The translations under genes were made by a program, and so were the position numbers. Positions 23,797 to 28,886 of a stretch of DNA of 37,073 nt are shown one piece after another. Position 1 is the first letter of the stretch; each line of letters opens with the position of its first letter. Under the pieces are notes generated by a model that was not told where the DNA came from, searched no databases, and was given only the letters and a program-made list of their open reading frames with translations. The DNA is from Actinomycetota bacterium (GTDB taxonomy: Bacteria; Actinomycetota; Actinomycetes; S36-B12; UBA5976): NCBI GenBank assembly GCA_947452755.1, contig CANGDT010000003.1, positions 1 to 37,073 on the forward strand. The letters run 5' to 3'.

Positions 23797-24687
23797 ATGA
23801 GCGATCTGTTTTGGGTTAACGACGAACTTGTACGAGCCGGTGACGCTCGCGTGTCTGTTCTTGATCACGGTTTTACCGTTGGTGATGGCGTCTTTGAAAC
23901 GATCAAGGTTGTCGATGGTCAAACGTTTGCGCGGACGCTCCACTTGGATCGTCTCGATCGTTCGTGTGTGGGCATTGGTCTTGCTGCGCCGGATCGCACC
24001 TTAGTAGTCAAAGCCATCGACGAGGTGCTGAGCGCGGGTGACTTTCAAGGCCTTGGTCGAATTCGTGTCACCGTGACAAGTGGTGTCGGACCCTTAGGAT
24101 CAGACCGGAGCTCTACTCAGCAAACACTCATCGTCGCTGGCACACAACAAAAACCCTGGTCCGAGGCTGCCTCTGTTGCAGTGGTGCCGTGGGTGCGCAA
24201 TGAACGCTCTGCTACATCAGGGTATAAAACAACGTCTTACGTTGAGAACGTCATAGCGCTGGAAGCTGCACATCAAGCGGGCTGTTCTGAGGCAATATTT
24301 CTCGACACGCGTGGCTACGTGAGCGAAGGAACCGGTTCAAACATTTTTTGGATCAAAGATTCCATAGTCTATACACCTGCGAGTTCAACCGGGTTGTTGC
24401 GTGGAATTACCCGGGAGTTGGTCATGGAATTATGCACGCGCATCAAAGTGGATTTACGCGAGAGTGAGTACCCGCTGGCTAGTCTGCTGGGTTCTGACGA
24501 GATCTTCATCACCAGTTCAACTCGTGATGTCATGCCAGTTACTGAGGTAAAGACCCTCGACCACGTAGCGAGCTTAAGTAGCTCTGTAACGTTTCAGTCT
24601 GGACCAGTGACGAATCAACTCATCGGGGAGTTCGCGGCGATGTCATCAGCAATTCCCGACCCGCGCATCGGTGAATTCTCGCTATAA
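23797..24687 (+). CDS. pabC: Class IV aminotransferase, probable aminodeoxychorismate lyase
   Basis: [53 protein letters not shown]; next to pabB. Confidence 0.87.
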
Positions 24688-24742
24688 GTACCGTGGGATA
24701 AAGTGGGACAGCAACACACGCAAACCACAAGTCCAGAACAGG

Positions 24743-26755
24743 ATGATCACTTTGGCCGAAGTACTCGTAGGACCCGATCGCGTTCCAACAGCGATTGAGG
24801 CCGGAGCGAGCGCCTATGACGTCGTTGGCGACAAAGCTCGCAAGGTTGTGGTGGCCAGCGTCAACGGCACAACTGTCGACCTCAGCCATGAGTTACAGGA
24901 TGGCGACGTTGTAGAGCCAATCTTGATTAGTGATCCAATCGGCTTGTCCGTCATGCGCCACAGCGTTGCACACATCGTTGCGCAGGCAACACAGTCACTC
25001 TTTAGCGATGTGTACCTCGGAATCGGACCTCCAATCAAGGACGGATTTTTCTACGATTTCGGCACTGAGCGAACTTTCTCGCCAGATGACTTGGCAGCTA
25101 TCGAGACCCGGACTGCAGAAATCATCCAATCCGGTCAAAAGTTCACCCGCCGGGTCGTCACGCGTGACGAAGCACAAACTCAGCTCGCGCACGAGCCGTT
25201 CAAGCAGCGCCTTCTGACGGCCGACGACGCCGAAGTAATGAACGAAGACGTTATGGAAGTTGGCGGCGGCGAACTCACAATTTACGACAACATCGATTTA
25301 CGTAGTGGTGATCACAAATGGTGCGACCTGTGCCGAGGTCCGCACGTTCCAGATACTCGTTATCTAGATGCTCGCGCCATCAAGCTCACCCGCACGTCTG
25401 CGGCTTACTGGTTAGGCGACCAGCGCAACGAGTCCATGCAGCGTGTTTATGGAACCGCGTGGCCAACCAAGGATGACCTTAAGGCACATCTCACCATGCT
25501 CGAGGAAGCCGAGAAGCGTGACCATCGTCGACTAGGTGTTGACCTGGACTTGTTCAGTTTCCCCGATGAAATTGGTTCAGGCCTTGCGGTCTTCCATCCC
25601 AAGGGTGGCATTATTCGCCGCCAGATGGAGGATTACTCGCGAGTGCGCCACGAGAACGCCGGGTACGAGTTTGTTTACACACCCCACATCACCAAAGGCA
25701 CTCTATTTGAGACTTCAGGACACCTTGATTGGTACAAGGATGGAATGTTCCCAGCGATGCATCTCGATGAGGAACTACACGAGGACGGCACAGTAAAGCG
25801 TCAGGCGCAGGAGTATTACCTCAAGCCAATGAACTGTCCTTTCCATAACTTGATTTTCAAATCACGTAGTCGCTCTTACCGCGAATTGCCGCTTCGACTT
25901 TTTGAATTCGGTTCGGTCTACCGGTACGAGCGTTCAGGTGTTATCCACGGTTTGACCCGCGTTCGTGGAATGACGCAAGACGATGCGCACATTTACTGCA
26001 CACCGGAACAGATGCCTGGTGAATTGAAGAATCTACTGGGCTTTGTGTTGGATCTGTTGCGCGATTACGGATTGAATGATTTCTATCTTGAGCTCTCAAC
26101 TCGCAATCCTGAGAAGTCGATTGGCTCTGAAGAGGAATGGGAAGCAGCAACACAAGCGTTGGCAAGTGCTGCTGCAGACTCTGGTCTTGATCTTGTGCCT
26201 GATCCTGGCGGAGCTGCGTTCTACGGACCAAAGATTTCTGTGCAAGCTCGCGACGCCATTGGCCGCACTTGGCAAATGTCGACCATCCAGGTGGATTTCC
26301 AGTTGCCGAATCGATTTGATCTTGAGTTCCAAAATTCAGACGGAACCCGTGCACGCCCAGTGATGATTCACCGCGCGTTGTTCGGTTCAATCGAGCGTTT
26401 CTTCGGTGTGCTCTTGGAACACTACGCAGGTGCTTTCCCTCCATGGCTCGCTCCAACGCAAGTTGTCGGTATCCCTATTGCATCCGCCCATGTTGATTAC
26501 CTCGATGGTGTAGCAGTGCAACTTCGTGCTGCTGGCATACGAGTGGAAGTTGACGCTAGCGACGAGCGTATGCAGAAAAAGATCCGCACCGCACAAACTC
26601 AAAAGGTTCCGTTCATGTTGATTGCTGGCGATGAAGACATGGCTGCAGGTGCAGTTTCTTTCCGTTATCGCGACGGATCTCAGGAAAATGGTGTTCCAAT
26701 CGCTCAGGCAATTGCAAAGATTGCCGACATTGTTGCATCGCGCGAGCAGATTTAG
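24743..26755 (+). CDS. thrS: Threonine--tRNA ligase
   Basis: TGS and editing domain ([11 protein letters not shown]), [67 protein letters not shown]. Start 24743 or 24752; the listed 24671 start lies inside pabC. Confidence 0.95.
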
Positions 26756-26762
26756 TCACGCT

Positions 26763-27275
26763 ATGAATGATGCGTCCAACGCACGCCCAAGTGCATGGGA
26801 TCGTATTTGGGCTCCGCATCGACGTGAATACATTGACAAATTTGCTGGTCGTTATAGCGACGGCGATTGCCCTTTCTGTTTAGGTGATGGCAACCAAGAA
26901 CTCGTCGTTCATCGCGGCGAACTTGCCTACGTTTTGCTCAACCTCTACCCGTACAACGCTGGACATGTGCTGATCTGCCCCTATCGCCACGTGCCTCTTT
27001 ATGACGAATTGACCGTGGTGGAGCGTCACGAGATTGCCGAGCTGACTGGAAGCGCAATGCGAACCTTGCGCAAGGCGAGTGGCTGTGAAGGCTTCAACAT
27101 TGGCATGAATCAGGGCGCGATTGCCGGTGCTGGCGTTGCTGGTCACTTACACCAGCATGTAGTTCCAAGGTGGGCTGCCGACATTAATTTCATGCCGATC
27201 ATTGCAGGCACAAAGGTTATGCCCGAAATGCTTGAGGACACCCGTGCGTTGCTATCAGAACTCTGGTGCGAATAA
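26763..27275 (+). CDS. HIT-family protein (Ap4A phosphorylase/hydrolase-like)
   Basis: CPFCLGDGNQELVVHRG, NLYPYNAGHVLICPYRHV, HLHQHVVPRW histidine triad. Start 26763 preferred; the listed 26622 start is inside thrS. Confidence 0.88.
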   Translation: MNDASNARPSAWDRIWAPHRREYIDKFAGRYSDGDCPFCLGDGNQELVVHRGELAYVLLNLYPYNAGHVLICPYRHVPLYDELTVVERHEIAELTGSAMRTLRKASGCEGFNIGMNQGAIAGAGVAGHLHQHVVPRWAADINFMPIIAGTKVMPEMLEDTRALLSELWCE

Positions 27276-28202
27276 CTTCGACATCTGACCGGATTCTGTG
27301 AATGTGTGACCGGGCGCAGCTGAACCGCAGGCAACTAGGCAAGGTGTGTCGAATTCGAACGAACATGTGCATTGCAGTTCGTGAGTGTGTGGTCCCCACG
27401 TCCGCGCTAGTCCAGCGGAAATGCCCAAACCAACGCGAGTTGGCGAATTGCTAGCGTCGCTGATAACTCCTTGTGAGTCGACACTGGGAATCCATCTCGG
27501 CTTTCGCGCTGCGAGCCACTCGCGCAATACAGGAACTCCGACGCCGTTATCGATAGCAGTCACTGCGACGATGTCGTCCGCCAAGAAGGCGCGTTCCAAA
27601 CCAGGCGTATTAGTTGGCATCCCAGCGATTAATGCTTCGATGAGTGCTTCACCTTCACTGAAGTGTGTCAATGTTTCGACAAGATCTTCGCGTCGCTCGA
27701 AAGTAAGTTGCATGTGTTCGGGATCGCCCGGTCGTGACATGAATCCGTTTGCGTCACGCGCAAGAATCTGCCCAGTCAAAATATCGAATTGTCCGACCAG
27801 CGTCGATTCGTCATCCGAAACAATAGGCATGTGACGAACAAGGATGTCGTCATCCAGAACGCGCTCAGCAATTGCCACAACTTCGTCGAAATCTGCTCTA
27901 GTTCCCACGCTATTCACCGACAGCACCCCACGCGGGATGCTCGAGTCACATGCCTTGGACCACAGGTTCATTTGCACAGGGGATAGACCAGTCAGACCAT
28001 CGACTATCACGAGCGCTGCATCACAAGCTTCAAGAACCAAGAAGTCATCCTGTGAGGTCAGACAAATGAAGGTTATTTCCGATTCTGCGAGCCGAACGTG
28101 AAACACCTGCGGTGAGTGCAAAGCAACATTGTCGGCAACCAAAGGTCCAATGACTGCGGGGTCATGGTGATCTTGGGCTAACAGGCCCACCAGAAGGTTC
28201 AT
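27255..28202 (-). CDS. Degenerate EF-G2-like protein: G/G'-domain-like region without GTP-binding motifs
   Basis: CDAALVIVDGLTGLSPVQMNLW, TRADFDEVVAIAERVL, PGDPEHMQLTFERREDLVETLTHFSEGEALIEALIAG and VGVPVLREWLAARKP resemble the corresponding EF-G(2) region. P-loop, DTPGH and NKxD motifs are absent. Confidence 0.6.
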   Translation of the reverse strand: MNLLVGLLAQDHHDPAVIGPLVADNVALHSPQVFHVRLAESEITFICLTSQDDFLVLEACDAALVIVDGLTGLSPVQMNLWSKACDSSIPRGVLSVNSVGTRADFDEVVAIAERVLDDDILVRHMPIVSDDESTLVGQFDILTGQILARDANGFMSRPGDPEHMQLTFERREDLVETLTHFSEGEALIEALIAGMPTNTPGLERAFLADDIVAVTAIDNGVGVPVLREWLAARKPRWIPSVDSQGVISDASNSPTRVGLGISAGLARTWGPHTHELQCTCSFEFDTPCLVACGSAAPGHTFTESGQMSKLFAPEF

Positions 28203-28286
28203 GTGCTCTCACTTACCACGTTGGTCATTCAGTAACATCTAGTTACCACTAGGAATGCTAGCGGCAGTTGAGAAGGGATCGAGTCG

Positions 28287-28886
28287 GTGCTTGATAACGC
28301 TGAATCGCGCGCACGCATCTCTGGTCTCGTTGATCCAGTTGCCCGGAAACTTATTTCGTTTGGTGTGAGTCCAGATGCCGTTACTTGGGCTGGTGCAATC
28401 GGAAGCGTTCTGACGTCCGCGATTTTCATTGCACATGGTCGATTCCTGCTTGGCGCGCTCATCCTTGGGGTTTTTTCGCTTTCTGATCTTCTTGACGGAA
28501 CCATGGCGCGAATGCAGAACCGTGCAGGGTCCTGGGGCGCATTCTTAGATTCGACACTCGACCGCGTATCTGACTCTGCAGTGATCTGCGCTCTCATCGT
28601 GTGGTTCGCGAACTCAAAGTCATCATTGATGGTTGCGGTAGCTTCGTTGGCATTGGTGACTGGTTTTCTTACCTCTTACATCCGAGCTCGCGCCGAAGCG
28701 GTTGGCGTCGAATGCAAAGTCGGTTTCGCGGAACGGGCTGAACGTTCCTTGCTGATTTGGATGGGCATGCTTCTCGCAGGATTAGGCGTCCCAGTTTTAT
28801 CTGCAACAGTGTGCCTTCTAGTGATTGCATCAACTATCACGGTTGCCCAACGCATGATGTTTGTGCGAAAACAGCTATCGTTATGA
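28287..28886 (+). CDS. pgsA: CDP-alcohol phosphatidyltransferase (phosphatidylinositol phosphate synthase-like)
   Basis: DLLDGTMARMQNRAGSWGAFLDSTLDRVSD matches D-x2-DG-x2-AR-x(n)-G-x3-D-x3-D; multi-TM; adjacent to acyltransferase and pimA-like genes. GTG start. Confidence 0.88.
   Translation: MLDNAESRARISGLVDPVARKLISFGVSPDAVTWAGAIGSVLTSAIFIAHGRFLLGALILGVFSLSDLLDGTMARMQNRAGSWGAFLDSTLDRVSDSAVICALIVWFANSKSSLMVAVASLALVTGFLTSYIRARAEAVGVECKVGFAERAERSLLIWMGMLLAGLGVPVLSATVCLLVIASTITVAQRMMFVRKQLSL

Follow-up and report, generated by a model that had tools for sequence, protein, structure and literature searches.

The window, by which we mean the whole analysed stretch of 37,073 nucleotides from a bacterium of the phylum Actinomycetota, belongs to an assembly of 1.73 Mb in 66 contigs. 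It carries a gene for a reduced EF-G2-like protein, flanked by thrS and a HIT-family gene on one side and a divergent pgsA-like gene on the other (Table 1). The frame is intact, with an ATG start and no internal stop, as the first-pass annotation of this DNA had read it. The own promoter which that annotation believed to be apparent was not recovered, as a scan restricted to sigma-70-like promoters found no site in 27200-28400, where 1.0 would be expected. On the minus strand at 28203-28228, directly upstream of the gene, an ATG at 28228 opens another frame that reads MTNVVSEST and then meets a stop. The profile search match also ran upstream past a TGA in this region. Because MTNVVSEST resembles the start of the orthologs, MT(M/I)(L/V)PS, we suspect a one-base indel or an assembly error near the start, and the window copy may use an internal ATG, with about nine residues affected.

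Table 1 Features of the reduced EF-G2 locus in the window. Residue numbers refer to the 315-aa protein; regional dN/dS values are from pairs within the window genus
Feature	Position	Strand	Basis or remark
thrS	24671..26755	+	left part of conserved neighbourhood
HIT-family gene	26764..27275	+	3' end overlaps 3' end of reduced EF-G2 gene by 21 bases
Reduced EF-G2-like CDS	27255..28202	-	315 aa plus stop; intact ORF, NCBIfam match, 21 intact orthologs
Compact, fast-evolving domain II (predicted), residues 238-315	27258..27491	-	AlphaFold2 strands 240-311, Foldseek; dN/dS 0.25-0.32
End of G domain (rest of G', beta7, alpha5), residues 184-237	27492..27653	-	model, alignment; dN/dS 0.04-0.10
Constrained core (beta4, alpha3, beta5, alpha4, beta6, G' sheet, helix A), residues 57-183	27654..28034	-	dN/dS 0.03-0.07, significantly lower than in the other regions
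DPEH motif and G' helix A, acidic, residues 160-181	27660..27725	-	corresponds to L7/L12-contacting helix of EF-G
ADFDE of alpha4	27882..27896	-	DFDE invariant in 21 orthologs
Lost G4 position, reads NSVG	27903..27914	-	alignment to full-length EF-G2
Relic of nucleotide-binding half (beta1-alpha1, beta2-beta3; switch I excised), residues 1-56	28035..28202	-	alignment to full-length EF-G2; dN/dS 0.09-0.29
Lost G3/DTPG position, reads LTSQDD	28044..28061	-	alignment to full-length EF-G2
Lost P-loop position, reads VGLLAQDHHDP	28158..28190	-	alignment to full-length EF-G2
pgsA-like phosphatidyltransferase gene	28287..28886 (start about 28287)	+	divergent neighbour, in reduced and full-length genomes alike

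Profile comparisons identify the window protein as a homolog of EF-G2 and exclude a chance match. The NCBIfam EF-G2 model (NF009377) matches it with E=3e-14 and recognizes 21 of 21 aligned members of the genus (best 8e-20), although its score of 52 bits is below the curated family cut-off of 890 bits. A profile built from the 21 proteins aligned with the second half of the G domain of full-length EF-G2 at a probability of 99.5% (hhalign, profile-profile). Sequence searches against Pfam and the PDB gave weak results for this divergent protein: its Pfam search gave no match above the cut-off, and GTP_EFTU (PF00009) left it without a match and hit three of the 21 orthologs weakly (best 8e-4). Alignment to full-length actinobacterial EF-G2 placed the segments cited by the first-pass annotation in the proposed order and confirmed the replacement strings that it had read at the P-loop, near G3, and at G4. 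The residues of the P-loop, switch I/G2, DTPG, and G4 are lost genus-wide, and no residue of the G1, G3, or G4 signatures persists across the 21 orthologs in this alignment. Features kept in most of the reduced lineages are the W and PR preceding beta5, LP in beta6, the D-D loop, a helix beginning with xDFDE or similar, the G' sheet, DxEH, and helix A.

AlphaFold2, run with 19 orthologs, returned a model of the window protein (pLDDT 86.6, pTM 0.86) with a Rossmann-type order, the G' sheet and helices, including helices at residues 161-166 and 168-181 in the DPEH/helix A region, and a strand-rich tail at residues 240-311. The best PDB matches of the model in Foldseek were all EF-G (E 8e-18, TM 0.73 by query length) and included N-terminal fragments comprising the G domain plus domain II; prediction and search for an ortholog gave the same answer. 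The model and its matches to EF-G therefore indicate that the C-terminal tail is a shrunken domain II. A residual alignment can still be drawn between AAPGHTFTESGQMSKLFAPEF of the window protein and AGDIVAV..AETGDTLS..NPLLVEPW of full-length EF-G2. The proposed loss of domains II-V thus holds for domains III-V and fails for domain II. Of the five domains of EF-G2, the protein has the G domain and a reduced domain II only; a GTPase-domain fold is present by prediction and the G motifs are lost, two of the features expected of pseudoGTPases. Judged from these sequence features, the window protein should be unable to bind or hydrolyse GTP in the manner of EF-G and unable to translocate.

An intact ortholog without internal stops is encoded in 21 of the 22 other genomes of the genus, usually with a length of 326-340 aa (one reaches a contig end), and the sole genome without a match is 65% complete. 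The order thrS-HIT-X-pgsA-pimA, with X on the opposite strand, is conserved, and in many order-mates X is a full-length EF-G2 of about 700 aa. Among 20 loci from other orders of the class, EF-G2 adjoins pgsA in 16 and lies some distance off in two; the other two, from family f8, have no recognisable pgsA. Since full-length EF-G2 occupies the thrS-HIT/pgsA position in sister lineages and in other orders, EF-G2 was reduced in place at its ancestral locus. The reduced form of X is found in the window genus and in g8, g12, g25, g26, g27, g29, g37/g38, and g3, and X is missing from further genomes, in which HIT abuts pgsA. A class-level search added family f27 of another order, with genomes mostly of 1.2-1.9 Mb and many of them single-contig, where 20 of 20 loci (L178-L197) hold an intact syntenic reduced EF-G2, mostly of about 200 aa, without P-loop and without domain II.

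Several other copies depart from this pattern. The reduced forms of genus g12 (L068-L073, about 350-370 aa) have lost switch I and DTPG and keep GPxxSGKT (GSAGSGRS in G120) and TKLD. They may, by these motifs, still bind a nucleotide, and because the P-loop is kept there, not all reduced forms need be nucleotide-free. The EF-G2 of G091 (L076, 3401-4831, minus strand) has intact G motifs and stops early in domain III. The copy is otherwise nearly full-length; the family search crossed a single in-frame TAG, which may be a recent nonsense mutation or an error. Two genomes of the window's own family (G160 and G161; L098 and L099) encode full-length EF-G2 outside the thrS-pgsA locus, with HIT abutting pgsA in both, a placement that suggests relocation or re-acquisition. 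Domain IV of EF-G2 scores 42 bits in G036, whose full-length form is sister to the reduced g12 forms, versus 149 in G030 and G037. For the pair G036/G121 (L096, L097), dN/dS of domains III-V is 0.107 compared with 0.03-0.04 in the N-terminal half, the core, and domain II, values that are approximate at a dS of 2.8. EF-G2 of these two genomes, whose domains III-V are relaxed and whose domain IV is degraded, looks like an intermediate, at a stage before loss.

The same kind of reduction seems to have arisen independently several times, in about nine events. On a tree of thrS, pgsA, and pimA with outgroups from other orders, the distribution of reduced and full-length forms needs nine changes, six of them forced by strongly supported branches, which disfavours a single ancient truncation. 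An alternative tree with other taxa and a larger ingroup needs 11 changes, five of them forced. The changes are read as reductions because the outgroups are full-length, and the exact count is soft because the tree is built from three linked genes in a short search with SH-aLRT support only. The reduced proteins tend to end at domain borders: those of g1, g8, g12, and g27 stop behind domain II, and those of g25, g26, g29, g3, and most of f27 stop behind the G domain. Among the results listed by searches of open-access literature text, none described an EF-G2 that is truncated and motif-less, or the repeated origin of such a form. Independent, repeated shrinking of this kind points to a useful GTP-free job residing in one face of the protein.

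Purifying selection on the reduced gene is strong. For pairs within the genus whose dS is below 2, pairwise codon models gave dN/dS of 0.09-0.14 and rejected neutrality with 2dlnL of at least 77. In the other reduced lineages dN/dS was 0.03-0.32 and neutrality was rejected in nearly every pair, most weakly in a pair with a dS of 0.03 (2dlnL 3.9); f27 pairs with dS of 1.4-2.5 had dN/dS of 0.03-0.06. Selection is concentrated in the alpha4-beta6-G' core and not in the dead nucleotide-binding half or in domain II: the differences in dN/dS between the regions in Table 1 are significant, and a slightly different split of the regions agrees. Conservation has shifted from the P-loop and beta4 to alpha4 and beta6. 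The most conserved blocks of full-length EF-G2 are alpha2-beta4 (84%) and the P-loop (79%), whereas those of the window genus are alpha4 (67%) and beta6 (68%), compared with 53% and 57% for the same two blocks in the full-length proteins. The same tendency is seen in g12, g25, and f27, and g8 is nearly level.

Alignment, predicted fold, gene position, and selection together support the earlier reading of the gene as an EF-G2-derived pseudoGTPase, and we consider it very probable that the protein is a selected pseudoGTPase that acts through its alpha4-beta6-G' face. Loss of the GTP site and of domains III-V from an EF-G2 at the ancestral locus would have left a binding module that acts via this conserved acidic face. 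The first-pass annotation had also considered a gene well into decay. A decaying pseudogene, caught between full-length EF-G2 and complete loss, would account for the truncation, the loss of motifs, and the clean absence of the gene in several related lineages, and the in-frame TAG of G091 and the degraded domain IV of full-length G036 could be seen in the same light. Yet unbroken frames in all but one of the other genus genomes and at every f27 locus, together with rates far below 1 among orthologs in the genus, its core, and the other reduced lineages, lead us to reject decay as very improbable. Still more remote is a split EF-G2, in which a separate gene supplies domains III-V and the halves assemble into a working factor. 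The reduced protein does end at the border of domains II and III, but a search for EFG_IV and EFG_C domains in twelve reduced genomes revealed no separate gene for domains III-V. Each of them has one EFG_IV and three EFG_C domains, all accounted for by frames the size of canonical EF-G, TypA, and LepA, versus two and four in three full-length genomes, and the split was rejected on this count. We also regard it as improbable, if less so than decay, that other residues let the G fold bind a nucleotide such as GTP or ppGpp. The modelled G-domain fold is kept, and the g12 form retains a P-loop and TKLD; on the other hand, switch I is excised and the signature residues are gone throughout the window genus, where the nucleotide-binding half also evolves faster than the core.

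The choice of partner is more evenly contested. Docking on the C-terminal domain of bL12 in the ribosomal stalk, via the retained acidic G' face, is the mechanism that we consider most likely, and we propose it tentatively. The reduced protein would then be a GTP-free stalk ligand, either a competitor of translation factors or a tether of something to the ribosome. The first-pass annotation had thought of a perhaps ribosome-associated scaffold, and the most strongly selected part does include the acidic G' region. In EF-G, this region interacts with L7/L12; it is conserved in EFG II, and so are the G1, G3, and G4 motifs (PMC3150367). The L7/L12 contact is made by glutamate residues of the G' subdomain (PMC8446442), and GTPases bind to a positively charged surface of the bL12 C-terminal domain (PMC6753160). 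Every reduced group has a helix A of net negative charge, and the acids equivalent to the EF-G residues in contact with L7/L12 are only partly kept in the reduced forms. As the acidity of helix A is inherited from EF-G2, it is compatible with bL12 binding and is not evidence for it. The main rival is a selected pseudoGTPase adaptor with a different partner, such as canonical EF-G or EF-Tu, a site on the small subunit contacted via domain II, or the neighbouring pgsA/pimA enzymes, and we grant it a substantial chance that stops short of an even one. It gains from the finding that conservation peaks in alpha4 and beta6 and not in helix A alone; to our knowledge, these two blocks are not known as stalk contacts. 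The reduced gene moreover adjoins pgsA in nearly all reduced genomes. Against a partner among the phospholipid/PIM enzymes, however, this neighbourhood is inherited from full-length EF-G2, which is sited there in many orders, and full-length EF-G2 lies away from pgsA in L098, L099, G174, and G175, so that adjacency is not required. A partner bound through domain II is at odds with the fast evolution of this domain in the window genus and its absence from several short forms.

EF-G2 is widespread in actinobacteria, and the reduced lineages amount to a natural series of deletions from which the part that matters can be read: they dropped the parts for GTPase activity and translocation and kept one face under strong selection. 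This suggests that a GTP-free factor derived from EF-G2 operates in freshwater actinobacteria. The gene is wholly lost in some lineages, and its function is therefore dispensable there. It is conceivable, though we hold this with more reserve than the docking on bL12 itself, that several lineages, some with very small genomes, independently turned EF-G2 into a GTP-free stalk-binding protein. If so, the function under selection would reside on the G' side of the G domain and not in translocation, and the reduced proteins would make up a recurrently evolved class of translation-factor pseudoGTPases.

The closest known system is actinobacterial EF-G2 itself (EFG II; NF009377/PRK12740), represented by FusA2 of Mycobacterium and by the EF-G2-70S complex of M. 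smegmatis (PDB 9k0z). The window protein shares with it a homologous second half of the G domain, the chromosomal position, and the acidic G' helix, and differs in lacking the G1/G3/G4 signature, switch I, and domains III-V, with 315 versus about 700 aa. The two-domain outline of the model, G plus II, recurs in N-terminal fragments of EF-G (such as PDB 5vh6 and 6bk7), which unlike the window protein are laboratory constructs with the GTP-binding sequence kept. Pseudo-GTPases of p190RhoGAP (PMC5593906) and degenerate septins (PMC10731463) are likewise G-fold proteins that lost GTPase motifs and serve as binding modules. They are eukaryotic and not derived from translation factors, and their loss of nucleotide binding was measured, whereas for the window protein we infer it. 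EF-G2 of Bacteroides is reported to be a full-length EF-G paralog without GTPase activity (Han et al. 2023, cited in PMC12775393). Its parallel to the window protein is that of an EF-G paralog whose function needs no GTP hydrolysis, as is probable for the reduced form; unlike the window protein with its missing domains III-V, it is full-length and catalyses translocation. Both pseudoGTPases and a GTPase-inactive EF-G paralog are thus already known.
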